Shown here: positions 13,990 through 63,757 of the stretch, in pieces
Position numbering within the stretch: position 1 is the stretch's first letter
Layout: each line of letters begins with the position of its first letter
DNA from: Paenibacillus sp. BIHB 4019
GTDB taxonomy: Bacteria > Bacillota > Bacilli > Paenibacillales > Paenibacillaceae
Reading direction: 5' to 3'
NCBI RefSeq assembly: GCF_002741035.1
Contig: NZ_CP016808.1
Span: 6,744,501-6,808,500 of the forward strand
DNA length: 64,000 nt
The notes under the pieces: model-generated
What the model was told of the DNA's origin: nothing
What the model saw: only the letters and a program-made list of their open reading frames with translations
The model's database searches: none
Position numbers and translations under genes: made by a program

Positions 13990-14090
13990 AAGGTGAAACG
14001 GCTATCGCCGTCCTTTGGCCGCGCTGTGCGTTTCAATCCGAGAAATATAAGCCTATTGATAAGTGCAAAACTTATACATTCTTATATTTC
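13990..14090 (+). repeat. Dispersed two-hairpin intergenic repeat, copy A
   Basis: This is one of four copies in the window. Hairpin 1 has outer arms TGAAACG and CGTTTCA. Hairpin 2 has perfect arms GAAATATAAG and CTTATATTTC. The copy ends about 24 bases before the tdk start, in sense orientation. Its second stem differs from copies B and D on both sides, keeping the pairing. Confidence 0.8.
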
Positions 14091-14114
14091 AAGTGTAAGG
14101 GAGAAATAGGCCAT

Positions 14115-14747
14115 ATGGATAGAGGTTGGATTACGGTCATTATTGGCCCAATGTTCTCGGAAAAATCCGGCGAGCTCATACGGCGCTGTCATAAATTGCT
14201 GCAATATGGCCGCAAAAAAGTAAGAGCGTATAAGCCTGCGGAAGATAACCGGTTCGGCAGCGAGGAAATTGTAAGCCGCATTGGCTACCGGCTGCCAGCC
14301 TTCAACATTCCGAAGGAGCTTACGCCCGAGATGGCAGAGCGCATATTGCAGGATACGAAGCAGGCCGACGTCGTCGCTTTCGACGAGGTGCAGTTTTTCT
14401 CCAAAACGATCATCCCTCTTGTAGAGGAGCTTGCCTATAACGGCAAACAGGTCATTGTAGACGGCCTTAACATGGATTACCGCGGCAAAGCCTTCGGCTA
14501 TATCGGCGGGCTGCTGGCCATTGCAGACGAAATTGTAAAGCTGACTTCCTTCTGCGCAGTATGCGGCGATGCAAACGCAGCGTTCACGCAGCGCGTCATT
14601 AACGGCCAGCCAGCGACGCTGGGGCCGGTCATTTTAATCGGCGATACGGAGAGCTACGAGCCCCGCTGCCGCCATTGCTTCGTCCCTCCGCATAAAGCGG
14701 TGGAAGAAGCGAGCGAAGAGCATACAGACGCTGCTGCGAAGCTCTGA
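14115..14747 (+). CDS. tdk: Thymidine kinase (type II) with altered P-loop
   Basis: It phosphorylates thymidine with ATP for DNA precursor salvage. Family marks: the general-base motif FDEVQFF (Glu91), VDGLNMDYRGKAFG, the lasso region, and a zinc site from Cys147, Cys150, Cys185 and Cys188. The P-loop reads GPMFSEKSGELIRR: residue 16 is Glu where the Walker A glycine (GPMFSGKSEELIRR in relatives) is almost invariant, and residue 19 is Gly where Glu is usual. Whether it still binds ATP is open; it could be a specialised paralogue. Ribosome site AAGGGAG is present. It sits just downstream of repeat copy A and ends at a strong terminator. Confidence 0.85.
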   Translation: MDRGWITVIIGPMFSEKSGELIRRCHKLLQYGRKKVRAYKPAEDNRFGSEEIVSRIGYRLPAFNIPKELTPEMAERILQDTKQADVVAFDEVQFFSKTIIPLVEELAYNGKQVIVDGLNMDYRGKAFGYIGGLLAIADEIVKLTSFCAVCGDANAAFTQRVINGQPATLGPVILIGDTESYEPRCRHCFVPPHKAVEEASEEHTDAAAKL

Positions 14748-14812
14748 TTGCAGCGCAACATACTGTAGCGAAAATGCGACAGCAACTCCCAGGGAACTGT
14801 AATATGAGCACA

Positions 14813-14869
14813 AAAAGGCTTGCACGGCCGCTCTGCTCCTGTTGAGCATGACGGCCGCGCAAGCCTTTT
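14813..14869. terminator. Bidirectional terminator between tdk and yqeM
   Basis: AAAAGGCTTGC plus CGGCCG pair with CGGCCG plus GCAAGCCTTTT, with A-runs on the left and T-runs on the right, so it can stop both convergent transcripts. Confidence 0.9.
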
Positions 14870-14894
14870 GGCGTTCCAGCAGAACGCCGCAATA

Positions 14895-15659
14895 TCATTT
14901 TACCGCTGCAAAAAAAAGCCGCTCGGAGTGCTCGCCTTGGGGCTGCAGCTTGAAATCGGCAAAACGCTCGACCTTGCTGAATCCGGCTGCGTGCAATTGC
15001 TCCGCTATCCAGTCCGCCTCATAAGCCCGCTGCACATGCATTTCTTCAAAGCGGCGAAACCGCTCGCCGCCTTCATGCGCAAAAATCGTCAAATGATGCT
15101 CAATTTCGCAGCGCTCCTCATCCAGCTCGCATGTCCAAATGTAGGCCGCCCCGTCCTCGTCCAGCACGAATGGCTGCTCCTCCGCATAACGAATGAGCTG
15201 TGCTTTCGGATGCACATCGAACAGAAACACGCCGCCAAGGCGAAGCGCCGCATATACCGCCTCGAAAGCGGCGATTACATCCGCTTCCTCCGTCAAGTAA
15301 TTGACGCAGTCGCAGAACGATATAACCGCGTCCACAGGCGCGCCCAGCTCCAATTCCCTCATATCCTGCTGCAGCCAGGTTGCTGAGCCTGCACGTGCGC
15401 CTTGGACGGCAGATAGCGCCTCATCCCATTTGCTGCGTGCCACAGTCAGCATATCCTCAGATAAATCGATGCCGTACACTTGCATGCCGGCCAAAGCAAG
15501 CGGTATCGCAATAGAGCCTGTCCCACAGCCAAGATCGGCAATAACAGAAGGCTTGCCATAACGCTCCCAGCATTGTTCTGTGAACCACAGCCAATCCTCG
15601 TAAGGCATGTCGCTCATAAGCTCATCGTATACCGCAGCGAACTCGCCATATGACTCCAC
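14895..15659 (-). CDS. yqeM: Class I SAM-dependent methyltransferase YqeM
   Basis: This is a soluble methyltransferase with the Rossmann fold. Motif I is IADLGCGTGSIAIPLA, the acidic end of strand 2 is VYGIDLSEDML, and motif IV is AVISFCDCVNYL. The N-terminus AAVYDELMSDMPYEDW is typical of YqeM. The start is GTG with AAGGAGGG nine bases upstream. The length is 254 residues. It closes the yqeG-yqeM operon as in Bacillus subtilis, except that cvfB is inserted before it. The methylated substrate is unknown. Confidence 0.88.
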   Translation of the reverse strand: MESYGEFAAVYDELMSDMPYEDWLWFTEQCWERYGKPSVIADLGCGTGSIAIPLALAGMQVYGIDLSEDMLTVARSKWDEALSAVQGARAGSATWLQQDMRELELGAPVDAVISFCDCVNYLTEEADVIAAFEAVYAALRLGGVFLFDVHPKAQLIRYAEEQPFVLDEDGAAYIWTCELDEERCEIEHHLTIFAHEGGERFRRFEEMHVQRAYEADWIAEQLHAAGFSKVERFADFKLQPQGEHSERLFFAAVK

Positions 15660-15673
15660 CTAGAAAGCCCTCC

Positions 15674-16636
15674 TTAATCCTCTGATGAGCCTTCGGAAGC
15701 AGAAGCTTCGCCATCGTTCGACTTGGCAGCATCGCCCGCTGCGCCATTGTCTCCTGTCGCTTCCACTAGATAGGTCCAGTTGCCCTTCTGGGTAATCAGA
15801 CGCTCGCGCATCAACTTGCCGATTGCACGCTTAAATGCCGATTTGCTAATGCCGAATTTTTGCTTAATAATGCCTGCTTCCGTCTCATCGGAATAAGGCA
15901 TGCCGCCGCCCGGACGCTCCTTCAAAAAGGCAAGCAGGCGATCGGCGTCTTCAAGGCGGCCCACTTCCTTCTGCTGGCCCATCGACAAATTCACCCGTCC
16001 ATCCTCGCGGATAAAAGTAATCCGGGCCGAGACACGCTCGCCAAGCCGAAGCGGACGCAAGCGGTCCGGTGCCGGAATAAGACCGTAGGCGCCGAAGCCG
16101 ACAACACCGCCATCAATTAGGACAAACGACCCCATTTGCAGCGATTTCGTTACCCAGCCTTCGATCCACTGGTTGCGCCAGGAATCTGGTGCCGCAAATA
16201 CGAGCGGCCCAAGCTCATCCTCGCCCGCAAGCCGGGCAATAAGCCTGCCGCTTTTGTCATGGCCCAGCACAATGTGAACCTCATCGCCCGGCAGCGGGCG
16301 ATAATCGATATTTTCCGGCAGCTCCGAAAGCGGCAGCAGCAGCTGGCGGCCAAGACCGATTTCAAGGAAGCAGCCCAGCCGCGGATGGACATCGGCCACC
16401 TTAAGCCGGGCCATCTCGCCGAGCTTCACCAGCGGACGCTTCATCGTCGCCGCCAGCCGATCCTCGGTATCAAAAAATATGAATACTTCAACCTCATTGT
16501 TAACTTTAGGCTTGCTGCCGACCAGCTCCGTATAATGCATCAGCACCTCGGATTCGCCATCGGTCAAAAAATAGCCGTAGGGCGACACTTCGCGTGCCAC
16601 CCTTAGCGTTATTGTCGTACCGGCAATCAAGCTCAT
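15674..16636 (-). CDS. cvfB: S1-domain RNA-binding protein, CvfB/YitL family
   Basis: This protein has several S1-like OB folds followed by a winged helix, the architecture of S. aureus CvfB, a post-transcriptional virulence regulator, and B. subtilis YitL. The S1-like parts span about 1-60, 65-135 and 145-220 (for example VLIDGGVVGFGAYGLIP and ARITFIREDGRVNLSM). The winged helix is about 235-290 (MPYSDETEAGIIKQKFGISK, KRAIGKLMRERLI). The last 30 residues are acidic and low-complexity. The start overlaps the rsfS stop by ATGA. Its location inside the rsfS-yqeM operon is unlike B. subtilis. Confidence 0.88.
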   Translation of the reverse strand: MSLIAGTTITLRVAREVSPYGYFLTDGESEVLMHYTELVGSKPKVNNEVEVFIFFDTEDRLAATMKRPLVKLGEMARLKVADVHPRLGCFLEIGLGRQLLLPLSELPENIDYRPLPGDEVHIVLGHDKSGRLIARLAGEDELGPLVFAAPDSWRNQWIEGWVTKSLQMGSFVLIDGGVVGFGAYGLIPAPDRLRPLRLGERVSARITFIREDGRVNLSMGQQKEVGRLEDADRLLAFLKERPGGGMPYSDETEAGIIKQKFGISKSAFKRAIGKLMRERLITQKGNWTYLVEATGDNGAAGDAAKSNDGEASASEGSSED

Positions 16637-16980
16637 GCGAACTCCACAACTTTGGCGTCAGACCACAGCTTTTCAATGTTATAATACTCACGCTCATCGC
16701 GGTGGAATACGTGAACAACAACATCGCCAAGGTCAATCAGCACCCAGCGTGCGGAATCCATCCCTTCAATGCCGCGTACGCGAACGCCGCGCAGCTCAGC
16801 CGATTTGCGGATTTCCGTCACAATCGCCTGTACCTGTGTATCCGAATTACCCGAGCAGATTACGAAATAATCCGCTACCAGGGAAATTTCCTGCAAATTC
16901 AAAGCTACAATACGCATAGCCTTCTTATCTTCCGCTGCAGCAACCGTTGCTTGCAGAAGCTCCTCCGAATGTACCGTCAT
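16633..16980 (-). CDS. rsfS: Ribosome silencing factor RsfS
   Basis: It binds ribosomal protein L14 and blocks subunit joining when nutrients are scarce. The 115 residues contain the family marks DYFVICSGNSDTQVQAI and RWVLIDLGDVVVHVFHRDEREYYNIEKLW. Ribosome site CAGGAGG. It follows yqeK by 3 bp and overlaps cvfB by 4 bases, inside the yqeG operon. Confidence 0.95.
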   Translation of the reverse strand: MTVHSEELLQATVAAAEDKKAMRIVALNLQEISLVADYFVICSGNSDTQVQAIVTEIRKSAELRGVRVRGIEGMDSARWVLIDLGDVVVHVFHRDEREYYNIEKLWSDAKVVEFA

Positions 16981-16983
16981 AAC

Positions 16984-34991: not shown

Positions 34992-36560
34992 TTAAGACTC
35001 CTGCCGCTCGGCATCTGTCTTCACCATCCCTTTAAACGACGAAGGCGACATGCCCTTATATTTTTTAAATTTAGCGTGAAAATAATCGACGTTCGCATAG
35101 CCGACCAGCTCGGATACTTGATGGACCTTAAGCCCTTGCTGAAGCAGCTCTACCGCATGGCGCAGCCGCACCTGATCGAGATAGGTGTTAAAATGCTCGC
35201 CGGTGAAATTTTTAAACATTTTGCCCAAATAGCCGCTATTGTAATTAAACAGCTCTGCCAGCGTTTCCAGCTTTAAATTTTCCGCATAATGGCGCTCAAT
35301 AAAACCGGTAATTTGCTTAATGACCGATACATTGCTGGAATTTCCGAGACGGAACGCGAGCTGCGACAGGCGGTCCTCCAGCAGCGCCATCATCTCGTCA
35401 TAGTTCGTCTGTTTGTATAAATCCGTTACAATGCGCAGCTCGTCCTGAATTGCCAGCTGTACATGAACCGCCGTCAGCTTGTTCAGTACAATCGTCAGCA
35501 TTTGCGCAAAGCTGGTTTTAATGCGCTGCTCGGAAAGCCGGCTCGTGCTCGCCAGCTCACTCGCTTCCTGCAGCATCAGCCGTACGCCATCCTGGCTGCC
35601 GATGTCGAGCATATAATACAGCTTCTGGGCCAGCTCCTGGAGCCGTAATTGGAGCTGCTCCTCATCCGCCTCTGCATGCAGAGCCTGCTCCTCGCCGCTG
35701 ACGAGATGAAGCTCGCCGCTTGACAGCCGGAAGCTATGCTTAATCGCCTCAAGTATGGCTTCATAGCTGCTCGGAAGCTGTACAAGCGCCGGCACCGCCT
35801 CGCCTACGACAGCGATATAACGCTGCTCCTGCGCCGCCTGCTGAACCCACTGCCGAAGCAGCTCGCCCGTGCCTTCCTGCACGACATAATCTTTCAGCAG
35901 CACAGCGGTATATGCGCCCGAGCTAAACGTCCAGCCTGCCCGGTTGCTCTGTACCGCACTAGTCAATCTGCGCCTCGCCGCAATGCTTGCAGCAGACGTA
36001 TGCTCCTCCGTTCTTGACCACTCAATGAGCAGCAGCTGGAAGCTCTTCGCCGAATCGCCAGTAAGCTGCTCCAGCTCCTTCCATATTTCCGGATAACTCG
36101 CCGCGTCGCCCGATACAGCAAGCTGCAGCAGCTCCTCCCGGCGCAGCGTCTCCCTATGGCCAAGACTGGCCGCCTGCTCGGAACGCTTGTCCAAAACCCC
36201 CGCTATACGCACAACGTTCTCATAGAGCTCGTCATCGTCAACCGGCTTTAATATATATGCGTCAATGCCGAACTGGATCGCCCGCTGCGCATAGCTGAAA
36301 TCAGCATGCCCGCTCAAAACAAGAAAATGGCAGGAGGTGTCGATTTTGCGAATTTCCTCTATCACCTGCAAGCCATCCATTCTCGGCATGCGTATATCCA
36401 TTAAAATTAAATCAGGCGCCAGCTGGCCGTGCTTAATAAGGGCTTCTGGGCCGCTGGCCGCTTCCCCTACCCAAACAAACCCAAGACTTTCCCAATCAAT
36501 AATTGTGCGCAGACCTGCGCGAATCATCGGCTCATCATCAACGATAAGCAGCTTATGCAT
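34992..36560 (-). CDS. YesN-type response regulator with AraC DNA-binding domain
   Basis: This is the DNA-binding half of a two-component system. The receiver domain (1-125) has LLIVDDEPMIR, phosphorylation site Asp55 in LMDIRMPRMDG, and Lys in AYILKPVDDDE. A long middle region of about 270 residues is typical of YesN. The C-terminal AraC domain (about 420-515) has two helix-turn-helix motifs (TLAELFNYNSGYLGKMFK, VSELVGYANVDYFHAKFKKY). It overlaps yesM by 8 bases. It likely activates the LplB operon or the GH3/GH95 genes next to it when glycan is present. Confidence 0.93.
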   Translation of the reverse strand: MHKLLIVDDEPMIRAGLRTIIDWESLGFVWVGEAASGPEALIKHGQLAPDLILMDIRMPRMDGLQVIEEIRKIDTSCHFLVLSGHADFSYAQRAIQFGIDAYILKPVDDDELYENVVRIAGVLDKRSEQAASLGHRETLRREELLQLAVSGDAASYPEIWKELEQLTGDSAKSFQLLLIEWSRTEEHTSAASIAARRRLTSAVQSNRAGWTFSSGAYTAVLLKDYVVQEGTGELLRQWVQQAAQEQRYIAVVGEAVPALVQLPSSYEAILEAIKHSFRLSSGELHLVSGEEQALHAEADEEQLQLRLQELAQKLYYMLDIGSQDGVRLMLQEASELASTSRLSEQRIKTSFAQMLTIVLNKLTAVHVQLAIQDELRIVTDLYKQTNYDEMMALLEDRLSQLAFRLGNSSNVSVIKQITGFIERHYAENLKLETLAELFNYNSGYLGKMFKNFTGEHFNTYLDQVRLRHAVELLQQGLKVHQVSELVGYANVDYFHAKFKKYKGMSPSSFKGMVKTDAERQES

Positions 36561-38361
36561 CTTCTTGCCCTCCTTGCGCTTGCGGGATTTGAAACGTAAT
36601 GGTCGTTCCTCCGTCTTCCCCGCCGCTCATAATCTGCAATCCGGAAGCCTGTCCATAGAGCAGCACCAGTCGCTGATGGACATTGCGCAGTCCAATGCGA
36701 TATTCCTGCTCATCGTCCATATCCCCCAGCGCCAGCATAATTTCATCCATTCTAGCCTCGTCAATGCCAATGCCGTTATCCGACACTTTCACATGCAGCA
36801 CCCGATCCCGAAGCAGCGTCGTCACGGTCACGCAGCCGCCTTCATCAATGTTTTCCAAACCATGAATGACCGCATTTTCGATCAACGGCTGAATGATCAG
36901 TGGCGGAATATCCAATGACTGCGCATGCGGGTCCAGCTCCAAATTAAAGGTGAGGCGGTCATTGCCGTAGCGAAACTTCTGGATTTCCAAATAACAGCGG
37001 ACAATTTCCAGCTCATCCTTAAGTCTTATTTTACCAGCGCCAATTTCCAAATTGCGGCGAATGAGCTTGCCCAGCATATGGACAATCGAGGAAATTTCCG
37101 TCTCGCCGTTTATATGCGCTTTCATGCGAATGGACTCCAGCGCATTAAACAAAAAATGGGGATTGATTTGGCTCGCCATCATTTTAAGCTTAATATCCTT
37201 CTGCCTCAGCTCCAGCTGATCCTGCTGCCGCTGGGACTCGGAAACCTCGTCCATCAGCCCGCGAATGCTGACCACCATATTGTTGAACTGCCGCGAGAGC
37301 AGCCCAATCTCATCATTGCCGTCCACCGTAGCCACCGTCGTCAAATCGCCCATTGCTACTTTGTTGAGGTTTTTATGCAGCAGCAGCATGCGCGTCGCGA
37401 GCAGTCCCGAGAAAAAATAAATGAGCAAAAACGCAATCGCCAAACTAATGCCCATAATCGTCAGTCCCAAAATGCTAATACGATTCGCTTCACTGACGAT
37501 GCTGTCGATCGAAAAGACGGATACGATGCGCAAACCATTGCGGCTTGATTGCGGGATAAGCTCCTCCATGACAAGCCGCGAACGCTTGCCTTCATACAAA
37601 ATTTCAAAGGTGCCTGGCCCTTTCCCCGACAATTGGCTGGAAAAATCGAGATTGGATAAATTCAGCCCTACCTGCTTGGGGTTGCTGGCCGCCACAATAT
37701 AGCCGGAATCATCAAAGATCATCGTATCGAAAGGCTCCTGGCTAAGCAGCGCATTCAGCTTCCCTTGATTAATGCCAATGACCAGCACGCCGCTTGTCCG
37801 ATAAGTAGGAAACGGTATTTTTCGAACTAGGCTGAGATAATTTTTATTTTTCTTCGTCTCATCCTTGATGTACATCCAGTGGATGCCGACTTCCCCCATC
37901 GCACTTTTGTACCAGGATGCCTCTGCGGTGGCTTTGCTTGTTTTGATAAATTCCCAGTTATCGAGAATCGTTTCGTTCGTCGTATAAAAGCGGATATTAT
38001 TGATTTCCGAATACAGCTGCATATAGTCTTTAAACGCCCGAAATTCCCACAATGCGCTTACAGCCTCAAACGTAGATTCATAATTGGTGTTCACCGTGCT
38101 TCGCAGCGCATTGTCAAACAGCATTTTATCCGAAATTGTGATGGGCATCCGAATAATGTCATCCGTCTGCTTCTTGATTTTCTCTACGTTGTTCAGCGTC
38201 TGCTGCGTCGCCTGATTCAGCACATTTTGACGAAAAGCCGCCGTTAAAATAATGCCGACAAGCAGCACCGGAATGCAGACGACAAGCAAAAATGAAATCA
38301 CCAGCTTATGCTTAATGCGAACATCGTTCATCTTTCTGACGAAGGCAGATTGTTTCTTCAC
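36553..38361 (-). CDS. YesM-type sensor histidine kinase
   Basis: This is a membrane sensor kinase of the LytS/YesM class. One transmembrane helix near residues 20-42 leads to an extracytoplasmic Cache-like sensor (about 45-290). A second helix (about 300-325) precedes a HAMP domain, then the kinase domain with ASQINPHFLFNALESI (phospho-His402) and ATP-binding motifs IENAVIHGLE and VSDNGIGID. The frame opens at 38418, but a GTG at 38361 with AAGGGG ten bases upstream gives 602 residues and a better start. Partner of the overlapping YesN gene. Confidence 0.93.
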   Translation of the reverse strand: MKKQSAFVRKMNDVRIKHKLVISFLLVVCIPVLLVGIILTAAFRQNVLNQATQQTLNNVEKIKKQTDDIIRMPITISDKMLFDNALRSTVNTNYESTFEAVSALWEFRAFKDYMQLYSEINNIRFYTTNETILDNWEFIKTSKATAEASWYKSAMGEVGIHWMYIKDETKKNKNYLSLVRKIPFPTYRTSGVLVIGINQGKLNALLSQEPFDTMIFDDSGYIVAASNPKQVGLNLSNLDFSSQLSGKGPGTFEILYEGKRSRLVMEELIPQSSRNGLRIVSVFSIDSIVSEANRISILGLTIMGISLAIAFLLIYFFSGLLATRMLLLHKNLNKVAMGDLTTVATVDGNDEIGLLSRQFNNMVVSIRGLMDEVSESQRQQDQLELRQKDIKLKMMASQINPHFLFNALESIRMKAHINGETEISSIVHMLGKLIRRNLEIGAGKIRLKDELEIVRCYLEIQKFRYGNDRLTFNLELDPHAQSLDIPPLIIQPLIENAVIHGLENIDEGGCVTVTTLLRDRVLHVKVSDNGIGIDEARMDEIMLALGDMDDEQEYRIGLRNVHQRLVLLYGQASGLQIMSGGEDGGTTITFQIPQAQGGQEDA

Positions 38362-38425
38362 TCGGCAAATGCCCCTTCTTCTGTTACTTCTTATATTTGC
38401 AGCTTCAATTCGTGGCAAAAATGTA

Positions 38426-38439: not shown

Positions 38440-38580
38440 AAAGCCCAGCTTCTATTATAAAATGCAGCACCCCAGATGTATACCCTGCTCCTCCCGCTCC
38501 GGGAACGTGCCAAATAAGCCTGCCTGCCCGCCGGCAGCAAACTAAGGGTTTGGCTTGCGCATGCTTATGCCCAGACTGGC

Positions 38581-38677
38581 AAGGTGAAACGGCTTCCGCC
38601 GTCCTCTGGCGGCGCGGCGCGTTTCAGTCCGAGAAATATAGAGAAAGGATGGCGAAAGCAGATCCTTTCCTATATTT
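38581..38677 (+). repeat. Dispersed two-hairpin intergenic repeat, copy B
   Basis: Hairpin 1 has outer arms TGAAACG and CGTTTCA and inner arms CCGCC and GGCGG. Hairpin 2 pairs AAATATAG..AAAGGAT with ATCCTTTCCTATATTT. It lies between the GH3 terminator and the yesM promoter region. Confidence 0.8.
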
Positions 38678-38712
38678 AAAAAAGACCGCAAGTTCATAAA
38701 GAGCCTGCGGCC
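38678..38712 (-). terminator. Terminator of the GH95-GH3 operon
   Basis: On the minus strand GGCCGCAGG pairs with CTTGCGGTC (two mismatches), followed by TTTTTT. It is 20 bp past the GH3 stop and directly abuts repeat copy B. Confidence 0.75.
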
Positions 38713-38732: not shown

Positions 38733-41630
38733 TTAGGAAAAAATAAAGCTGCTCAACCGCACGCTGCCGCTCAGCGCAATATAAACGTCCGCCTGCGGGG
38801 AAATGCCCGCTGCAAGCGATGCCGAAACGCTCTGCCACTGCTGCTCGCCGCCAGCGGGCACCGTCAGAACGGCTGCTTGTTCAGCCTCAGCAGCGCCTAA
38901 GCGCACCGTCAGCGTGCCGCCAGCCGGTCCGCCGCTAACCCGCGCCTCGATGGCTGCTGGAGCAGCGCTCCATTGCACATCTGCAAGGCGTATCCAGCCA
39001 GCGTTTGATGCATCCTTCAGCCGCACGCAGGTGCCGCTTTCCTTGCTCTCATCAAGCAGCACGCCGGAGTAATCATCATAGTTTTCCGCGCGCGTCAGCT
39101 GCGTCAGCAATCTTGGCGGAATGCTCTCGCCTTCGATGGAAAGCTCGGCTGTCAAGCGGATGTCGCTTGACGAGCTGCCGGCCATCAGGCTGTAAACGCC
39201 TGACTCCAGACAGAAGCGGTCCCGCGTCACATCCCACATGGAAAGCTCAGCTGCGCTAATCGCGATCTGAACCGTAATGCTTTCCTGCGGCTGCAAGTAA
39301 ACGCGCTCGAACCCAACGAGCTGCTTCACCGGACGTTTAACTCGCGAGGCATTCGCGCGGGCATACAGCTGCACGACTTCGCCGGCCTCCACACTGCCCG
39401 TATTCGTTACTCGAATGCTGGCTGTCCAGCCTTCGCCCGTTTCAGCCGGGGAAATTTGCAGGCTGTCGAAGGAGAATGGCGCATACGTCAGCCCATGGCC
39501 GAATGGATATAGCGGCACATCCTCGAAATACATATAGGTACGTTTTCCTTTAATAATGTCATAATCCAAAATATCGGTTAGCTGCTGCTCCATTTGGCTG
39601 TACCAAGTCATATTCAGCTTGCCTGCCGGCGCAAAATCGCCAAACAGCACATCAGCGACCGCATTGCCAAGCTCTTGCCCGGCATGCGCCAAATAGACGA
39701 CCGCTGGAAGATGCTCCTGCGCCCAGTTAAGCTCAAACGGGTAGCTGCCGATGACGACGGCGATGACGTTCGGATTAACCGCGTATACCTCCCTCAGCAG
39801 CCGCTCTTGCGCTGCTGCAAGCGTAAAGCCCGGACGGTCTGTTTCTTCCTTGCCGTTAATAAGCGGGTTGTTGCCAACGAATACAATCGCCGTTTCTGCT
39901 TCGCGGGCTGCCGCTACTGCTGCGGCAATTCCGTCAACGGTAACGTCCAACCTAAAGGCACCTTTATGCTCTTTATCACCATTGCTGCCGCTTCCGCTGT
40001 TAGCTGCGCCGCCCGCGTTGTCTCCACCTGCTTCTGGCGTACGCTCTTCTTCGGTAACTTCCTCGGATATAGTCAGCAGCTGCTTGCCATCCTGCTCCTT
40101 CAGTACAACCGGTTTATCATCCCAGGTAACAATGTCCGTCGTGCCATCCGCTTTCTCATCCAGGCGCAGCACTTCCTTCACATACCAGCCGTAAGCTTCA
40201 TCCGCTGCAGCCGCAATGTGGACATCATCCGCGCTCGTCGCGAATTTGCCCGTCGATTGGCTTTGCAGCGTCAAGCTGTTCCAACCCCAATCGCACACCT
40301 CAAACGTCTCCGCAGCGCTGCCAGCGGCGACCTGCAGTACACCGTTGTCACCAAGCGAGACAGGTGCTCCATCTGCGGCAGATCTCAATTCCACCTGATT
40401 GCTGCCGCTCGTAAACGTTACCTTTTTGCCAGCCAGCTTCTGCTGGATGGCGGCAAACGGCGTAACCGTATAAGGGAAAGTGCCGGAGTACCAATCGCGA
40501 TATACGACATCGCCGAGCGGCCCGATGACCGCTACGCTGCCCAGCTTGCTGCTGCTCAGCGGAAGCGTGGCCTTTTCATTTTTGAGCAAAACGATCGACT
40601 CGCGGGCGGCCTGAAGCGACAGGTCGCCGTGAGCTGGAGCGCATAAGACGGAATCTGGCACATTCGCATACGGATTATCCGCATCAAATTCGCCAAGACG
40701 GAAGCGCACGCGGAACGTATTGGTCAGCGCTTGGTCAAGATCTGCTTCCGCAAGCAAGCCTTCGGACAATGCCTCGCGGATCGCCCCGCAGCTAATTTCC
40801 TTATCGTCGGTAATGCTGTCGATTCCCGCTTTAATCGAATGGGCTACCGCTTCCTTGTACGTATCATAATAATGATGATCCTTCACCAGGCCGATCAAAT
40901 CGCCAGCATCGCTGACGATAAACCCGTTCATGCCCCATTCGCCCTTAACGACCTTGTTCACATCCTCATGCAAAATCGTCGGGATGCCGTTTACCGAATT
41001 GTACGACGTCATCATCGATTGAGCGCCGCCCTTGACGAACGCAGGCTGAAAAGCACGCTGGTAATATTCCTTCATATTGCGCGGATCAATGCTCGCTGAG
41101 CAGCTGCCGCGATCAATTTCATTGTTGTTGGCGATAAAATGCTTCAGCGTCGCAACCGCTTTGAAAAATACCGGATCGTCGCCTTGTATGCCTTGCACGA
41201 GAGCCGTAGTAAGCTCGCCCGTCAGCTTCGGGTCTTCGCCATAAGCCTCCTCCGTCCGTCCCCAACGCGGATCGCGTTCCATATCGACGGTAGGCGCCCA
41301 CAGCGTGAGGCCGTTTACTTCAGGGTCGCGCTGATAATAGACGCGGGCTTCATCACCGATGACAGAACCAATAGCTTTCAGCAGCTCCGGGTTCCAGGTG
41401 CAGCCAAGACCGAGGGGCTGTGGGAACGAGGTCGCTTCGCCGAGCCAAGCCAGACCATGCGCCGCTTCCGTTCCATGCTTGTATGGTTTTACGCCGAGCC
41501 GCTCAACGGCAGGCTGATATTGCACCATTAGCTCTACTTTTTCCTCCAGCGTCAGCCGCGATACGAGATCGCGCACACGCTCCTCTATGTCCAGCTTGCC
41601 GTCTAAAAATGGATACTGCTGTTCTGTCAT
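38733..41630 (-). CDS. GH3 beta-glycosidase with inserted and C-terminal accessory domains
   Basis: This is a family 3 retaining glycosidase (beta-glucosidase or beta-xylosidase type), 965 residues, with no signal peptide. The N-terminal barrel (about 15-320) has the Lys163-His164 substrate ligands (TLKHF) and nucleophile Asp241 in IVSDAGDL. The alpha/beta sandwich begins near 335 (ARESIVLLKNE) and is interrupted at about 412-562 by a beta-rich, possibly trefoil-like insert with a Gly/Ser/Asn linker. It resumes at DVTVDGIAAAV. An Fn3-like domain (about 735-805) follows, then a CBM6-like domain (about 825-965, AENYDDYSGV). It follows GH95 by 55 bp, in the same operon. Confidence 0.92.
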   Translation of the reverse strand: MTEQQYPFLDGKLDIEERVRDLVSRLTLEEKVELMVQYQPAVERLGVKPYKHGTEAAHGLAWLGEATSFPQPLGLGCTWNPELLKAIGSVIGDEARVYYQRDPEVNGLTLWAPTVDMERDPRWGRTEEAYGEDPKLTGELTTALVQGIQGDDPVFFKAVATLKHFIANNNEIDRGSCSASIDPRNMKEYYQRAFQPAFVKGGAQSMMTSYNSVNGIPTILHEDVNKVVKGEWGMNGFIVSDAGDLIGLVKDHHYYDTYKEAVAHSIKAGIDSITDDKEISCGAIREALSEGLLAEADLDQALTNTFRVRFRLGEFDADNPYANVPDSVLCAPAHGDLSLQAARESIVLLKNEKATLPLSSSKLGSVAVIGPLGDVVYRDWYSGTFPYTVTPFAAIQQKLAGKKVTFTSGSNQVELRSAADGAPVSLGDNGVLQVAAGSAAETFEVCDWGWNSLTLQSQSTGKFATSADDVHIAAAADEAYGWYVKEVLRLDEKADGTTDIVTWDDKPVVLKEQDGKQLLTISEEVTEEERTPEAGGDNAGGAANSGSGSNGDKEHKGAFRLDVTVDGIAAAVAAAREAETAIVFVGNNPLINGKEETDRPGFTLAAAQERLLREVYAVNPNVIAVVIGSYPFELNWAQEHLPAVVYLAHAGQELGNAVADVLFGDFAPAGKLNMTWYSQMEQQLTDILDYDIIKGKRTYMYFEDVPLYPFGHGLTYAPFSFDSLQISPAETGEGWTASIRVTNTGSVEAGEVVQLYARANASRVKRPVKQLVGFERVYLQPQESITVQIAISAAELSMWDVTRDRFCLESGVYSLMAGSSSSDIRLTAELSIEGESIPPRLLTQLTRAENYDDYSGVLLDESKESGTCVRLKDASNAGWIRLADVQWSAAPAAIEARVSGGPAGGTLTVRLGAAEAEQAAVLTVPAGGEQQWQSVSASLAAGISPQADVYIALSGSVRLSSFIFS

Positions 41631-54066: not shown

Positions 54067-55272
54067 TTAGTTAGTTGATGCGTTCATTGGTTCGTTTAAT
54101 GATGGCATGAAGCTGGTTCCATGATCAGGCAGTGTAACGCCGAAATTATCGGCAATGGATGCTCCAACATCAGCGAAGGTGCTTCTCAGCGCGAGCTGCC
54201 TGCCGCCTTGCTTGAAACGCGGCGAATAGACGAGCAAAGGCACATATTCGCGGGTGTGATCCGTTCCTTCATAAGTCGGATCATTGCCATGATCAGCCGT
54301 AATGATGAGCAAATCCTGCTCCGTCAGCTTGGCGAATACTTCTGGCAGTCTGGCATCATATTGCTCTAAAGCCTGTCCATACCCTAGCGGATCGCGGCGG
54401 TGGCCGTACAGCGCATCAAAATCGACAAGGTTTAGAAAGCTGAGGCCCTTGAAAGGCTCATCCAGCACCTCAACAAGCTTATCCATGCCATCTTCATTCG
54501 AGATGGTGCGAACGGCCTTCGTAACCCCTTCTCCATCAAATATATCGGCAATTTTGCCAAGCGATATGACAGCTAGCCCCGCATCCCTCAGCGTATTCAT
54601 TACCGTTGGCTGAAAAGGCTTAAGCGCGTAATCATGGCGATTAGCGGTACGCTTGAAATGTCCGATTTCCCCTACAAACGGACGGGCAATAATCCGACCC
54701 AGCATATACGGGTCATCCAGCGTAATTTCCCGGCAGTATTCGCATATGTCGTACAGCTCTTTAAGCGGTACAATTTCTTCGTGCGCAGCAATTTGCAGCA
54801 CCGAATCCGCCGAGGTGTAAATAATGAGCGCGCCTGTCTTCACATGCTCTTCGCCCAGCTCTTCAATAATTTCCGTTCCACTAGCCGCTTTATTGCCGAT
54901 GACCTTGCGGCCTGTCTTCTTCTCAATACGGGCAATCAGCTCATCTGGAAAGCCATCTGCAAAGACGCGGAATGGCGTCTCGATATGAAGGCCCATCATC
55001 TCCCAGTGCCCTGTCATCGTATCCTTGCCGCTGGACGCCTCCTGCATTTTCGTATAAAAAGCAAGCGGATGATCCGCAGCCGGAACCCCGGCAACCGGTT
55101 CAATATTCGACAGTCCAAGCGCAGCCATATTCGGCATATGCAGTCCGCCCATCTCGCGGGCAATATGCGAGAGCGTATGGACGCCAAAGTCTCCGAACGC
55201 GGCAGCATCCGGCGCTTCGCCGATGCCTACCGAGTCCATTACAATTAAATGTATCCGTTCAAATGCTGCCAT
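54067..55272 (-). CDS. deoB: Phosphopentomutase
   Basis: It converts (deoxy)ribose-1-phosphate to the 5-phosphate, linking the phosphorylases to the aldolase. It has the alkaline-phosphatase-like core: [13 protein letters not shown] with a metal Asp, [13 protein letters not shown] with the phosphorylated Thr, and [11 protein letters not shown] with metal ligands. A GTG at 55281 abuts the GAGAGGCG site; the ATG at 55272, nine bases after it, gives 401 residues. Repeat copy C lies just upstream, between it and the transporter gene. Confidence 0.95.
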
Positions 55273-55292
55273 GCCTGGCACCGCCTCTCCTC

Positions 55293-55390
55293 AAGCGTAA
55301 ACGGCTTTCGCCATCCTCTGGCGGCAAAGCTGCCGTTTCGCGTTGCAATATAAAGAAAAGATAGAAAAATCATATCCTTTCTTATATTTT
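55293..55390 (+). repeat. Dispersed two-hairpin intergenic repeat, copy C
   Basis: Hairpin 1 has perfect arms AAACGGC and GCCGTTT, different from copies A, B and D but still paired. Hairpin 2 pairs AATATAAAGAAAAGAT with ATCCTTTCTTATATT, with one mismatch and one single-base bulge. It is placed inside the deo operon, between nupC and deoB, antisense to the transcript. Confidence 0.75.
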
Positions 55391-56570
55391 AAATGAAAAT
55401 TCCTGCAATCGTCGCCGACAGCACGCTGACCAGCGTTGCACCATACAGCAGCTTCATGCCGAAGCGTGCAACGGCATTGCCCTGCTTCTCATGCAAACCT
55501 TTGACCGCGCCTGCAATGATGCCAATGGAGGAGAAATTAGCGAAAGAGACGAGAAACACCGACACGACGCCGACTGCTTTAGCCGAAAGATCAGGATATT
55601 TGCTAATTTCCAGCATCGCTACAAATTCATTCGAAACCATTTTCGTGGCCATAATGCTTCCCGCATCAACGGCATCTTTCCACGGCACCCCCATAATAAA
55701 AGCGAAAGGAGCGAAAATAAATCCAAGTATTTGCTGAAAGGAAATGCCGAGAATGCCAAGAAACAATCCATTAATCATGCCGATGAGAGCAATAAAACCG
55801 ATCAGCATCGCCGCGACAATAATCGCAACCTTGAAGCCGTCCATAATATATTCGCCCAGCATTTCGAAAAAGGTCTGCTTCTCCCCTTCCTCCTGTACTT
55901 GCAGCACGTCTTCGCCTTCCTCCACCGTATACGGGTTAAGAATAGAAGCGATAATAAAGCCGCCGAACAGGTTGAGGACGAGCGCGGTCACCACATATTT
56001 CGGGTCTAAAATTTGCATATACGAGCCGACAATCGACATCGATACGGTGGACATCGCCGAGGCGCACAGCGTATACAGGCGATGCTTCGGCAGCAGGCCA
56101 ATTTGTTTTTTGACCGAAATGAATACTTCCGATTGGCCCAAAATGGCTGATGCGACCGCATTATACGACTCCAGCTTGCCCATGCCATTGACTTTGCTTA
56201 ACACATATCCGATGCCCTTAACGATAAAGGGAAGGATTTTCAAATATTGCAAAATGCCAATTAGCGCGGAAATGAAGACGATTGGCAGCAGAACCGACAG
56301 GAAAAAGGAAAATTGTCCTTCATTTAAAATGCCTCCAAATACAAAATTGATCCCTTCCTGCGCGTAGGAAAGCAGATGCTCGAACACGCCGGAAAAACCT
56401 TTAATCAAGGTCGCGCCCGCAAACGTATTTAATAGCACAAAGGCAAGAACCACCTGCAAAACGATCATGATGGCAATCGGCTTGAAACGAATATTTTTCT
56501 TATTGTTGCTGACGATATAGGACAATCCTAGCACAACAAGCAGGCCTAATAAAGCTACGATGTATTTCAT
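55389..56570 (-). CDS. nupC: Concentrative nucleoside transporter, NupC family
   Basis: This is a sodium- or proton-driven nucleoside importer of 393 residues with about ten membrane segments. Family marks are the hairpin region [36 protein letters not shown] and [17 protein letters not shown], which bind nucleoside. Ribosome site AGGAGG. It supplies the downstream phosphorylases. The stop sits at the edge of repeat copy C. Confidence 0.94.
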
Positions 56571-59781: not shown

Positions 59782-60237
59782 TTACAGGGCGCTTTCCAAT
59801 GTTTTCAAAATATCTGCTGCGTTTTGGCCATCCAGCAGCTCTTGACGGAAGCTTTCGTGTATCAGCTTGCGCGATACCGAAGCCAAAATCCGCAAATGCT
59901 CCTTGCCTGCATCCGATTCCGGAATGGCCAGCAAAATAATCGAAGTGACCGGCTTGCCATCAAGGGAGCCCCAGTCAATTGGCTGTGAAAGACGGGCAAA
60001 AGCTAAGCCCGGCTTGCTGACACCCGCGGATTTGCCATGCGGAATCGCAACCCCAAAGCCGATGCCTGTTGACGCATGCTGCTCACGCGCCTCAACCGAA
60101 GCTAGAAAAGCAGCCTCATCGTTCAAATAACCAGCCGATTGCAGCCGCTCAGCAAGCTCTTTAATAACGGCTTGACGGTCACCAGCGGATGAATCGAGAA
60201 TGATTGTTTCAATATTTAATAAGGTTTGGGATGACAT
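59782..60237 (-). CDS. PTS fructose-type EIIA protein
   Basis: This is a free-standing EIIA of the fructose/mannitol class, 151 residues, carrying phosphate from HPr to EIIB. The phospho-His is His67 in VAIPHGKS. Other marks are REQHASTGIGFG and KEHLRILASVSRKL. The reading frame opens at 60252, but only the third ATG, at 60237, has proper spacing (GGAGG, eight bases). It is fused to IIBC in many bacteria; here it is separate. Expected in the cytoplasm. Confidence 0.9.
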   Translation of the reverse strand: MSSQTLLNIETIILDSSAGDRQAVIKELAERLQSAGYLNDEAAFLASVEAREQHASTGIGFGVAIPHGKSAGVSKPGLAFARLSQPIDWGSLDGKPVTSIILLAIPESDAGKEHLRILASVSRKLIHESFRQELLDGQNAADILKTLESAL

Positions 60238-60262
60238 GTTCATTACCTCCATGGAGTGGGAT

Positions 60263-61642
60263 TTAAGCTGCTGCCAGCTTATTTTTTTTGAGCAAGGATA
60301 CCGTTACGGCTGTAACAACAGAACCGATGACAATAGCTGCGGCATAAGCGCCGAGATGCGTTACTGCATTTGGAATAGCGAGTACGAATGCCCCGCCATG
60401 CGGCGCTTGCAGCGTCGCCCCAAACACCATCGACAGCGCGCCCGCTACTGCGGAACCAAGCACCGTACCTGGGATGACACGAAGCGGATCAGCGGCTGCG
60501 AAAGGAATAGCTCCTTCGGTAATAAAGGCCAGCCCCATGACTCCTGCTACTTTTCCCGCATCGCGCTCTTCTTTGGAAAATTTGTTTTTGCGAATGACGG
60601 TCGCAAGCCACAAGCCAAGCGGCGGAGTCATTCCTGCTGCCATCACGGCAGCCATTGGGCCGTACACATGGCTTGCAAGCAAGCCGACAGCAAATGTATA
60701 CGCTGCCTTATTAAGCGGACCGCCCATATCGAACGCCATCATAGCCCCAAGCAGCAAGCCGAGCAAAATCGCATTCGTTGAATTCAGGCCTGTCAGCCAT
60801 GTCGTCAAAATATCCATCAATGTCTTCACTGGCGTTCCTACGACATAAATCATAATCAGCCCGACTATGAGCGTCGACAGCACGGGGATAATAAGAATCG
60901 GCTTAATGCCTTCCAGCGATTTCGGCAGCTTGATCGCATGACGCAGCCATTTTGCCACATAGCCGGCAAGAAAGCCTGAAATAATACCGCCGAGGAAGCC
61001 GGCTCCCAGCTGGCTGGCCAGCATTCCGCCTACAAGTCCGGGCGCAAGGCCGATCCGGTCTGCGATAGAGAAGGAAATAAAGCCGGATAAAATCGGAATC
61101 ATTAAAGCGAATGCCGCCCCGCTCCCAATGTTCATCAGCGCTGCTGGGAGCGTACCTTCCTCTTGGAACGCTTTTATACCGAAAATAAACGAAATCGCAA
61201 TAATGATTCCCCCGGCGACAACGAGCGGCAGCATATTCGACACACCAGTCATCAAGTGCTTGTAGGCACCCGTTCGCACAGAGCTGCCCTCTTTCTTCGT
61301 CTGCTCCTGTGCAGGTGCGGCCGCCCCAGCTTGAGCCGCTTCTTTCGCCAGCGCCTGCTCAATCAAGCCTGCCGGATTGCGGATGCCTTCGGCAACGCCA
61401 ACTTTAATAATCGGCTTGCCTGCAAATCGAGATTCCAATACATCGGTATCCGCTGCCAAAATAATCGCGTGCGCTTCGGCGATTTCCTCCGGCGTAAGCT
61501 CATCCTCTACGCCAAGCGCGCCGCGCTTTTCAACCTTCAGCGGAACACCTTTCTCCTCTGCCATTTTAAGCAATGATTCCGCGGCCATATACGTATGGGC
61601 AATGCCAGTCGGACAAGAAGTTACAGCCAGCAATTTCTTCAT
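60263..61642 (-). CDS. fruA: PTS fructose-specific EIIBC
   Basis: This is the membrane transporter that phosphorylates fructose on entry to fructose-1-phosphate. The EIIB domain (1-100) has phospho-Cys10 in TSCPTGIAHTYMA. An Ala/Glu/Lys-rich linker (about 105-120) leads to EIIC (about 125-455) with about nine membrane segments, including MLPLVVAGGIIIAISF and GGPLNKAAYTFAVG. The length is 459 residues. It has no EIIA domain, which is encoded next in the operon. Confidence 0.95.
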   Translation of the reverse strand: MKKLLAVTSCPTGIAHTYMAAESLLKMAEEKGVPLKVEKRGALGVEDELTPEEIAEAHAIILAADTDVLESRFAGKPIIKVGVAEGIRNPAGLIEQALAKEAAQAGAAAPAQEQTKKEGSSVRTGAYKHLMTGVSNMLPLVVAGGIIIAISFIFGIKAFQEEGTLPAALMNIGSGAAFALMIPILSGFISFSIADRIGLAPGLVGGMLASQLGAGFLGGIISGFLAGYVAKWLRHAIKLPKSLEGIKPILIIPVLSTLIVGLIMIYVVGTPVKTLMDILTTWLTGLNSTNAILLGLLLGAMMAFDMGGPLNKAAYTFAVGLLASHVYGPMAAVMAAGMTPPLGLWLATVIRKNKFSKEERDAGKVAGVMGLAFITEGAIPFAAADPLRVIPGTVLGSAVAGALSMVFGATLQAPHGGAFVLAIPNAVTHLGAYAAAIVIGSVVTAVTVSLLKKNKLAAA

Positions 61643-61684
61643 GTCAATTCCTCCCTTATGATGTCGCCAGTCTCTTCAATATAA

Positions 61685-62626
61685 TCACAATGCCTGAATA
61701 TTTATATCGCCCGCCCGGCTGCGAATTTCCTCAAACTCGCATACTTGGGTACCTGCTTTGGAAGCTGTTATCGTTCCAGCGGCCGTACTCCACCTTGCCA
61801 CATTTTCGAGGCTGCTATTTTGCAATAGCGCCTGTGCAAGTACGGCTACCATTGAATCTCCTGCGCCAACGGTGCTCAGCGCCTCAATGGGAAACGGCTT
61901 TGCCAAGTAGGCTTCGTTGCCGCTCATGACGATAGCCCCATCTGCGCCCATCGATATCATAACGAGCGTTATCCCCTGAGCAAGCAGCTGTCTTCCCGCC
62001 TGAACGATTTCCTCTTCCGAGTCCAGCTTGCGCTGAGCAAGCTGCTCCAGCTCATAAAGATTCGGCTTGACCGCGTAAGGAGTCGCTTTGATTCCAGAAA
62101 CCATCGCCTCGCCATCCGCATCCAGAATCGTACGTACGCCTAGCTTGCGCGCTTTCAAAATAAAATCATGATACAGCTGCGGCGGCGCCCCCTTCGGCAG
62201 ACTGCCTCCAAGGACGAGTACCGACGCTTTCGGCAGCAGCTCATCGAGCAGCTGATCCAGCTCGGCAAGCTGGCTTTCGCTGACCGCAAAGCCCGGCTCA
62301 TTCACCTCGGTCGTCGTTCGCTGCTTCTGATCTACAAGCTTCATATTCGTCCGCGTCTCGCCCGGTACTTCAACAAATGCCGTATGAATGCCTGAACGAT
62401 CCAGCTCATCTTTAATTCGTTTGCCTATGCCGCCAGCGATAAATCCTGCGGCGGTAACGCTGGCTCCAAAGGTGTGCACGATTCGCGCCACATTAATGCC
62501 TTTCCCGCCGGGATCAAGGCGGATGTCCTCCGCCCGGTTGAGCCCGCCCAGCTTCAGCTCCTGAAGCATAATCGTCTTGTCCATGGAAGGATTCAAAGTA
62601 AGTGTAATGACTTGCTGCTTGGACAT
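61685..62626 (-). CDS. fruK: 1-phosphofructokinase
   Basis: It phosphorylates fructose-1-phosphate to the 1,6-bisphosphate. PfkB-family marks: LTLNPSMDKTI at the N-terminus, DPGGKGINVARI (substrate site), and STVGAGDSMVAV with catalytic Asp. The frame runs on to 62734 inside fruR, but the ATG at 62626 lies nine bases after AGGAGG, giving 313 residues. It is 4 bp after fruR, so the two are co-translated. Confidence 0.95.
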   Translation of the reverse strand: MSKQQVITLTLNPSMDKTIMLQELKLGGLNRAEDIRLDPGGKGINVARIVHTFGASVTAAGFIAGGIGKRIKDELDRSGIHTAFVEVPGETRTNMKLVDQKQRTTTEVNEPGFAVSESQLAELDQLLDELLPKASVLVLGGSLPKGAPPQLYHDFILKARKLGVRTILDADGEAMVSGIKATPYAVKPNLYELEQLAQRKLDSEEEIVQAGRQLLAQGITLVMISMGADGAIVMSGNEAYLAKPFPIEALSTVGAGDSMVAVLAQALLQNSSLENVARWSTAAGTITASKAGTQVCEFEEIRSRAGDINIQAL

Positions 62627-62630
62627 GCTG

Positions 62631-63419
62631 TTACGCCTCCTTTCCTGCCGAGGTTCGATACACCTCGACGCCTCGCTCTTCCAGCTTCCGGGCAAATTCC
62701 TCCGGCATATCCGAATCGGTAATGCACACGTCAATATCGCTCCAATCAGCGAAGCGCGCGAAGCTGATCTGATTCACCTTGCTGCTGTCGCTGAGTAAAA
62801 TAATGCGGTCAGCGCGCTTGATCATTTTGCGCTTGATGTCTCCCTCGACCACGTTCGGCGTGCTAAGTCCTTCCTCCAAATCCATGCCGTTCGTCGCCAT
62901 AAACGCCTTGTCAACCTTAATGAAATCCAGGCTGCGCTCGGTAATCGGCCCGACCAGTGACAATACGCCAGGCCGGTAAGCCCCTCCTAGTACAATGACA
63001 TCAATGCCTGGCGGCAGCTCCAAATCCTGCGGAAGCATGAGCGAATTGGTCACAACCGTCAGCTTCGTAAACGCTGTCAATTGCTGCATCAAATAAAAAG
63101 TAGTTGTGCCGGAGTCCAGCAAAATCGTATCCCCATTGCTAATCCATTGAACCGCTTTAGCTGCAATCGCTTTCTTTTGCTCCGTTGATGTAATCTCCCG
63201 CTCGGAAAAGCTCGGTTCAAAGTTAACGCTGCGAATGGATATCGCTCCGCCATGCGTGCGCTTAAGCAGCCCGGCTTCCTCCATCTCCCGCAAATCCCGG
63301 CGAATCGTCGACTCTGATACTTGAAACTTTTCACATAGTGCCTGCAGGTCAACTCGCTTCTGCTCTTCTACTAAAGCTAAAATTAAATTTTTGCGTTCTT
63401 CACCAAAAATGTTCCTCAC
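62631..63419 (-). CDS. fruR: DeoR-family repressor of fructose genes
   Basis: This is a repressor that is expected to sense fructose-1-phosphate. The N-terminal helix-turn-helix (about 15-60) is VDLQALCEKFQVSESTIRRD, and the sugar-phosphate domain has GDTILLDSGTTTFYL and NSLMLPQ. The length is 262 residues. The start is GTG with only a weak AGGCG adjacent, so expression may be low. First gene of its own operon, behind a promoter covered by repeated sites, which implies autoregulation. Confidence 0.92.
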   Translation of the reverse strand: MRNIFGEERKNLILALVEEQKRVDLQALCEKFQVSESTIRRDLREMEEAGLLKRTHGGAISIRSVNFEPSFSEREITSTEQKKAIAAKAVQWISNGDTILLDSGTTTFYLMQQLTAFTKLTVVTNSLMLPQDLELPPGIDVIVLGGAYRPGVLSLVGPITERSLDFIKVDKAFMATNGMDLEEGLSTPNVVEGDIKRKMIKRADRIILLSDSSKVNQISFARFADWSDIDVCITDSDMPEEFARKLEERGVEVYRTSAGKEA

Positions 63420-63427
63420 CGCCTATT

Positions 63428-63440
63428 TGATCGTTTATGA
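63428..63440. promoter_or_regulatory. Candidate FruR site between promoter and fruR
   Basis: On the minus strand this reads TCATAAACGATCA, the same core as the sites at 63482 and 63542, in opposite orientation. It lies in the 5' untranslated region. Confidence 0.5.
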
Positions 63441-63481
63441 AATCATTCAGCCATTCAAATGAATGATTATGAACGTTTTAT

Positions 63482-63505
63482 TTATAAACCGATTATATTC
63501 AGTCA
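63482..63505. promoter_or_regulatory. Candidate FruR operator over the -10 box
   Basis: The core ATAAACCGATTATATTCAGTC repeats, with four differences, exactly 60 bp away at 63542. It overlaps the -10 box, where bound repressor would block RNA polymerase. Confidence 0.65.
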
Positions 63506-63520
63506 AAGACGTGATGTCAA
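63492..63520 (-). promoter_or_regulatory. Perfect-consensus sigma-A promoter of the fru operon
   Basis: On the minus strand the -35 is TTGACA (63515-63520) and the -10 is TATAAT (63492-63497), with a 17-bp spacer: all 12 consensus bases match. Confidence 0.85.
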
Positions 63521-63541
63521 TTGGTTTATTTAACTATTATT

Positions 63542-63565
63542 TTCATAAACGGTCATACTCAGTCA
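63542..63565. promoter_or_regulatory. Candidate upstream FruR operator
   Basis: The core ATAAACGGTCATACTCAGTC is the direct repeat of the operator over the -10 box, 60 bp apart. TTGGTTTATTTAA at 63521-63533 may be another half-site in opposite orientation. Confidence 0.6.
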
Positions 63566-63660
63566 TTCCCTGAACTTATTCAAGGCAAATGGTCTGCGCA
63601 TGCCCATGACCATTCACACATTGCTATTTAGAAGGTTAAGCCTATAAAATAGGATAAGAC

Positions 63661-63757
63661 AAGCGTAAACGGCTTTGCCGTTCTCTGGCGGCACAGCGCG
63701 TTTCAGTCCAAGAAATATAGAGAATGGATGGATAATCATATCCTTTCCTCTATTTCA
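63661..63757 (+). repeat. Dispersed two-hairpin intergenic repeat, copy D
   Basis: Hairpin 1 pairs AAACG with CGTTT. Hairpin 2 pairs GAAATAGAG-type arms around GGATGGATAATCATATCC. It ends about 30 bases before the GNAT gene at 63788, sense orientation. It occupies most of the gap between that gene and the fru control region. Confidence 0.8.

Follow-up and report, generated by a model that had tools for sequence, protein, structure and literature searches.

Within the 64,000-nucleotide stretch of the Paenibacillus sp. BIHB 4019 chromosome analysed here (NZ_CP016808.1, positions 6,744,501 to 6,808,500; the window), a two-hairpin repeat of about 98 bases occurs four times between genes (copies A to D). 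A sequence-only reading had described four such copies with a common layout. All of them were recovered, with a mean column identity of 73% in their alignment, and the stems quoted for copy A (GAAATATAAG/CTTATATTTC) and copy C (AAACGGC/GCCGTTT) were both found. The common orientation noticed earlier was confirmed; it fits the location of all four copies inside one replichore. The remark that a single regulon is not evident also stands. In the following, the strand on which the T-tract comes first (AAATATA...CTTG) is called the active strand. It is the complement of the strand on which the repeat had been described, and therefore all features below are given on the minus strand, with the copy boundaries as inferred in this analysis. 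The covariance model R1 was built on 27 copies with A to D among them, and thus the R1 scores of these four copies are not independent evidence.

13989-14089, minus strand: copy A, upstream of tdk (14115-14747); from sequence, alignment and covariance model R1
13992-14039, minus strand: right hairpin of copy A, GC-rich; from folding
14042-14090, minus strand: left hairpin of copy A, AT-rich, sub-type L2, one target base included; from folding
14090-14093, minus strand: target CTTG of copy A (active strand); from sequence
38580-38677, minus strand: copy B, flanked by the genes of a sensor histidine kinase (36553-38418) and a GH3-type glycosidase (38733-41630)
38583-38630, minus strand: right hairpin of copy B, type R1; from folding
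38634-38677, minus strand: left hairpin of copy B, type L1, with a one-base bulge; from folding
38678-38683, minus strand: T-tract target TTTTTT of copy B (active strand); from sequence
55292-55389, minus strand: copy C, between deoB (54067-55281) and nupC (55389-56570)
55295-55341, minus strand: right hairpin of copy C, type R2, end TTTACGCTTG; from folding
55347-55388, minus strand: left hairpin of copy C; from folding
63660-63755, minus strand: copy D, upstream of the gene for a regulator of the DeoR family (62631-63419)
63663-63707, minus strand: right hairpin of copy D, hybrid in type, with the 5' arm of R1 and the 3' arm of R2; from folding and comparison with the congener G010
63712-63756, minus strand: left hairpin of copy D, one target base included; from folding
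63756-63763, minus strand: T-tract target TTTTTTTG of copy D (active strand), kept in the empty site described below; from sequence

The left neighbour of copy A reads ...TTACACTTG on the active strand, hence the target CTTG. The bulge in the left hairpin of copy B lies in the 3' arm on the active strand, which is the 5' arm on the strand described earlier. Copy C sits at the stop codon of nupC, whose open reading frame (ORF) covers 55389-56570 on the minus strand.

The four copies belong to a large family. A genome search had been named as the way to tell such a family from four chance copies, and with covariance model R1 at least 152 matches at E≤1 were obtained in the chromosome of 7,246,671 bases. 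As the best 150 of 3306 candidates were scored, the counts are lower bounds; the weakest of the 150 listed matches had E = 1.4e-7. With copy B as the sole BLAST query and 40 of 213 candidates scored, at least 68 places were matched at E≤1; 61 of these matches were close to full length and had E<1e-20. Elsewhere in this study, counts are lower bounds wherever 40, 102 or 150 candidates were scored. The 150 listed matches correspond to 114 sites, of which 18 are arrays of two to five units. These are arranged head-to-tail with a spacing of 97 or 98 bp in 33 of 36 cases. An oriented profile run over 553,705 fetched bases found 184 units at 126 sites, whose neighbouring genes were taken as greedy longest ORFs. 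Neighbouring units within arrays were bimodal in similarity, with 14 of 49 pairs 71-82% identical and 35 pairs at least 87% identical, while copies from different sites had a mean identity of 79%. The dissimilar neighbours fit insertion beside a resident copy, the near-identical ones local amplification.

On the active strand, the layout is (T-tract)-AAATATAGGAAAGGAT...ATCCTTTC-T-CTATATTT-CTCGGACTGAAACGCG...CGTTTCACCTTG. The AT-rich left hairpin begins directly at the 5' end of the element and the GC-rich right hairpin has its foot a few bases short of the 3' end. In the comparison of hairpin types and joints, from which 14 of the 184 units were left out for lack of full model coverage, left hairpins were of the types AAATATAGG, AAATATAAG and AATTCTAAG and right hairpins, classified by their end, of the types CACCTTG, TTACGCTTG and TTTTTGCTTG, and the two sets occurred in several combinations. 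Of the 101 scored right ends, 87% terminated in CTTG and 11% in CTTA. At its feet, the right stem shows covariation (GG/CC, GCG/CGC, GCAAA/TTTGC), and 17 copies from other genera had the same layout with the further paired variants GCAT/ATGC and GGTAAAC/GTTTATCC. Among 170 units, the left stem was bulged on the 3' arm only in 98, on both arms in 24 and on the 5' arm only in 12; the others had internal loops only (31) or a perfect stem (5). IS608-type ends carry imperfect hairpins, which the asymmetry of these bulges appears to resemble. At one locus (L297), the left hairpin was lengthened to a nearly perfect stem of approx. 20 bp, and two genomes of another genus (G124 and G140) contained repeat matches of 125-137 bp.

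The folding was strong on both strands, with z-scores between -3.2 and -6.4 under DNA parameters (A, D and the copy in locus L002). Covariation, which had been proposed from the four copies and was to be judged with many, held up: changes on both sides were seen in 20 of 27 pairs compared to 9.0 in shuffles (122 distinct rows), pairing cells amounted to 90.6% compared to 86.0%, and cells with two-sided changes to 126 compared to 33.5. None of 500 shuffles reached the observed values, and sliding the partners by one to three columns left 18-55 two-sided cells and 7-12 pairs. These values derive from an alignment fitted to the model, with all 124 rows kept (some low-scoring reverse-strand matches among them), and much of the covariation tracks the sub-types.

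Three meanings had been offered for such a structure, namely a structured RNA, a protein-binding element and a hairpin-dependent mobile element, and the first of these lost ground. A structured RNA or a 3'-end element of messenger RNA (terminator or stabiliser) under selection on its fold would explain the fold and the covariation, and terminators do stand beside some copies (29 of 126 sites with TTTT and a hairpin of -14 kcal/mol or better). Rfam, though, gave no gathering-score match in the window and none on a copy at six further loci, with a single sub-gathering overlap (L290, E = 0.8). Departures from pairing were counted in 110 distinct rows after 12 of the 124 rows had been dropped for low scores. 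The right stem had 34 G-T and 35 A-C. The left stem had 73 G-T and 35 A-C, an apparent RNA-strand asymmetry that was produced by the target-base column alone (43 and 2), the rest being 30 and 33. Without this column, the strand described earlier had 64 G-T and 68 A-C. The strand-specific tolerance of G-U that a selected RNA would be expected to have is absent from both strands, and therefore a conserved RNA is not favoured. Furthermore, the T-tract strand is antisense to both neighbouring genes at 24 of 126 sites, 23 sites lie between divergent genes, a relative lacks copies C and D at the corresponding loci, and genomes of the genus contain anywhere from 0 to at least 102 matches. An RNA under selection is thus an unlikely explanation. 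A c-di-AMP riboswitch above the gathering score lies near one copy (L002, 2118-2283, minus strand).

The orientation of the repeat mostly follows replication. With dnaA at 2.130 Mb taken as origin, the active strand was the lagging-strand template at 85 of 114 sites when the terminus was set at half the genome, and at 95 of 126 sites with a terminus at 5.69 Mb, chosen between the best fit (5.62) and the origin plus half a genome (5.75). Gene direction was considered as the cause of this bias and rejected, as the bias persists between lagging-strand and neutral gene pairs. The rule was kept at 55 of 73 sites between leading-strand gene pairs, at 6 of 6 between lagging-strand pairs and, where the two genes converge or diverge, at 30 of 42 (p = 0.008). 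Pooling of these neutral pairs with the lagging-strand ones gave 36 of 48 (p = 0.0007).

The same polarity was observed in seven relatives with a located origin, where the listed high-scoring sites were counted and arrays collapsed by hand. It was obeyed at 40 of 48 sites in G010 and 22 of 24 in G011, both with dnaA at base 1, and in other genera at 12 of 15 (G132) and 6 of 6 sites (G103) with dnaA at the start of the record. Two further genomes of other genera with dnaA at the record start, counted by eye, gave 4 of 4 (G160) and 1 of 1 (G067). The record of genome G174 does not begin with dnaA, and its polarity seemed reversed. The polarity switch led to an origin expected near 3.6 Mb, and dnaA was found at approx. 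3.688 Mb in the region looked at (3.40-3.80 Mb, 400 kb of 7.19 Mb), the expectation not having been recorded beforehand. With dnaA so placed, 12 of 13 listed sites of this genome obey the rule (p = 0.003).

The insertion sites are one-sided. TTTT was present within 9 nt of the left end in 67 of 98 non-tandem flanks. At control positions, the counts were 4 of 98 (left side, more distant) and 4 of 101 (right side); 9 of 170 rows were dropped as their boundary was not found. In the 98 non-tandem left flanks, T made up 65-87% at positions -8 to -2, followed by A (54%) or G (30%) at -1. On the right side, no base was clearly preferred apart from the last one of the element itself. In tandem arrays, the usual joint is CTTG followed directly by AAATATA. 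Within the last 14 nt before the element, 84 of 126 sites had TTTT, of which 29 also had a hairpin of -14 kcal/mol or better and 55 did not. Terminators as target were therefore rejected, and the T-tract as such appears to be the target.

Group IIC introns target terminator T-tracts on the lagging-strand template. Retro-insertion in their manner would agree with the T-tract in the 5' flank and with the lagging-strand polarity, but most of the T-tract sites are without a strong hairpin and the ends AAATATA...CTTG do not resemble intron boundaries. A reverse transcriptase (PF00078) was not detected in this genome, the sole one tested, with 3 of 14 controls positive. Truncation from the 5' end as by reverse transcription was at first suggested by 13 of 14 partial hits that keep the CTTG side. 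Among those read (7 of the 14, plus others), several proved to be full copies with another left hairpin or copies with internal deletions, and the idea was dropped for this reason; the partial copies are mixed deletions or other sub-types and not regular 5' truncations. This explanation is considered very improbable.

Paenibacillus algorifonticola XJ259 (G066, locus L162) is 91-94% identical to this genome in its larger blocks and has at least 150 repeat matches of its own, but no copy is present at the sites orthologous to C and D. Site D is a precise empty site in which ...GATTTTTTTG is joined to TCCTTGTC, with no target duplication beyond 3 ambiguous bases. Site C is empty at ...TTTTCATTTAA joined to TGAGAG, where the right joint differs by a few bases. 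In G010, where the region beside site C is missing and D alone could be compared, site D is filled and its right hairpin carries an R2-type 5' arm in place of the R1-type arm found here, the 3' arms being identical. This comparison suggests that arms may be exchanged or converted in place between dispersed copies.

The repeat is probably a family of non-autonomous mobile elements that an enzyme acting in trans mobilises from the lagging-strand template in the form of single-stranded DNA. Of the three meanings offered earlier, it is the hairpin-dependent mobile element that gained from the empty sites, the one-sided T-tract and the replication polarity. Replication would expose the lagging-strand template, which could then fold into the two hairpins. 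A HUH-type or other single-strand nuclease would cut on the 3' side of both the YTTR target and the terminal CTTG, and the excised strand would be joined 3' of another T-tract (TTTTTTR) or CTTG. Its terminal CTTG would also turn a copy already in place into a target, which would give rise to arrays of unlike units, while arrays of near-identical units may grow by local fork slippage. The enzyme is perhaps lost from this genome or belongs to an unrecognised family. The claim made here is that the repeat works like single-strand transposition; membership of IS200/IS605 is not claimed because no transposase, no parent element and no guide sequence were found.

Several results weigh against mobility of this kind. 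The minority orientation occurs at 31 of 126 sites, the polarity counts omit six genomes whose records do not start with dnaA (G154, G126, G164, G025, G144, G013), and the favoured orientation was not significantly commoner among arrays (30 of 35) than among single sites (65 of 91; Fisher p = 0.11). Both of the empty sites come from a single species, where precise loss is possible, and the right joint of site C is off by a few bases. Neither an excision product nor a de novo insertion was seen. Neither hairpin foot is preceded on its 5' side by an apparent guide tetranucleotide complementary to the target, and there is no space between the cut site and the left hairpin. Concerning the enzyme, this genome had no hit for Y1_Tnp (PF01797; 5 of 14 control genomes positive), Y2_Tnp (PF04986; 0 of 14 controls and 8 of 51 genus genomes positive) or Rep_1 (PF01446; 0 of 14 controls and 1 of 51 genus genomes positive). 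Among copy-rich genomes, G000, G011, G016 and G022 are without Y1 and G010 and G003 with it. Among 28 Y1 loci, a single copy was found nearby, and no locus was bounded by the ends of the element.

Inspection of the right foot showed that it is mostly preceded by TCTC, TCTA or CATC, which are not complementary to CTTG; non-canonical guide pairing is possible. The ends of seven Y1 loci that were read (L172, L173, L174, L181, L182, L186, L191) look unrelated to the repeat, and 11 Y2_Tnp or Rep_1 loci from congeners gave no significant repeat match. Y1, Y2 and Rep_1 enzymes were therefore rejected as partner, being absent here and none of the loci scanned being bounded by the ends of the element. 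A transposase between close copies was rejected as well: in the intervals that were readable (9 of 11), the ORFs resembled host genes on visual inspection, with no family search made, and two of the nine had no ORF of 70 aa. By eye, the Y1 elements in G003 (L174), G010 (L173) and G041 (L172) were IS608-like and IS605-like, with a TnpB-like ORF in L173. G011 contains seven copies of an IS91-like element (Y2_Tnp, 427 aa) that all score the same, and two of them share 1616 bp at 99.9% identity.

These searches bear on two further explanations. A PATE- or REP-type descendant of an ordinary IS200/IS605 element, with its TnpA in other strains, would follow the same rules as the single-stranded element proposed above, and Y1_Tnp is present in 8 of 51 genomes of the genus. 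Given that no Y1 locus obtained is bounded by the repeat, that the ends of seven look unrelated, the lack of a guide sequence and the copy-rich genomes without Y1, such an origin is doubtful. The repeat may also spread with no dedicated enzyme, by template switching at the fork and hairpin slippage into T-tracts. The near-identical neighbours in 35 of 49 pairs, the arm exchange at site D and the fact that no candidate enzyme was found agree with this, but ends that recur at dispersed sites and the precise empty site D are hard to obtain without a site-specific nuclease, and the explanation is considered improbable. As a bolder extension of the mobile-element reading, one may tentatively consider a new class of transposable elements, that is, twin-hairpin single-stranded DNA units whose enzyme is of none of the known families (Y1, Y2, Rep, reverse transcriptase) or is replaced by the fork itself, spread in Paenibacillus and related families and recording the direction of the fork closely enough for their orientation to locate the origin of replication; this is possible, albeit not the likelier case.

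In comparison with known systems, IS200/IS605 elements are the closest. In the parts of the literature consulted, they are described as transposing on the lagging strand without target duplication, inserting 3' of a fixed short target, and having hairpin ends, guide sequences and ends-only derivatives (PMC6006769, PMC7290912). Like these elements and PATEs, the repeat carries a hairpin close to each end, is without terminal inverted repeats, gave no sign of target duplication, and has a one-sided short target, lagging-strand-template polarity and an asymmetrically bulged stem. Unlike IS200/IS605, it has no Y1 transposase in the genome, no parent element found to share its ends and no visible guide tetranucleotide, and its target is a T-tract plus R and not a strict tetranucleotide. 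It further differs from a classical MITE, as it lacks terminal inverted repeats and target duplication.

REP/REPIN sequences (RAYT, TnpA_REP) likewise occur as many hairpin copies, in clusters and with several sub-types per genome. The present unit differs from them by its head-to-tail two-hairpin form of approx. 98 nt, with no inverted doublets seen in the arrays; by inspection, no GTAG guide was found 5' at a hairpin foot, and the genome has no Y1 and hence no RAYT. IS91 and rolling-circle Rep proteins of the pC194 and phiX174 type nick between CTTG and ATA. In the repeat, CTTG would precede the cut and the joint of CTTG with AAATATA recalls these nick sites, but Y2_Tnp and Rep_1 are absent from the genome and the 11 congener loci were without significant repeat match. 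BOX, bcr and similar repeats of Firmicutes are short, modular, intergenic and found in arrays, and the repeat resembles them in all of this, the comparison being one of description. Replication polarity and a one-sided T-tract target are not known for BOX, bcr and similar repeats. No description of the repeat was found in the open-access papers searched, which does not establish its absence from print.

The repeat behaves in the manner of single-strand transposition while the expected transposase is lacking, which points to an unknown mobilising activity. The repeat is also a marker of replication direction that can be read from sequence, and its polarity led to dnaA in one genome. With gene direction controlled, it may be regarded as a natural record of lagging-strand insertion.

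Concerning distribution, no match was found among phages for the two queries tried or among viral contigs for two exact patterns. On plasmids, copy B as query gave two weak records with partial matches, P. cellulosilyticus NZ_CP054609.1 and NZ_CP054613.1, and two other sub-types gave none. Plasmids and phages as carriers thus led nowhere. The two records are large replicons listed as plasmids. In a sample of relatives, 24 of 40 genomes, this one included, had matches at E≤0.01, of which those near the threshold may be chance; 21 of the 24 are from the same genus. In a sample of the order with stricter filters, 32 of 149 genomes were positive at E≤1e-4, representing 9 of 38 genera and four families. 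Finally, the region neighbouring site C varies between relatives: deoB is full length here, the corresponding region of P. algorifonticola is without two internal stretches of approx. 340 and 168 bp, and G010 is without approx. 1.3 kb spanning deoB.

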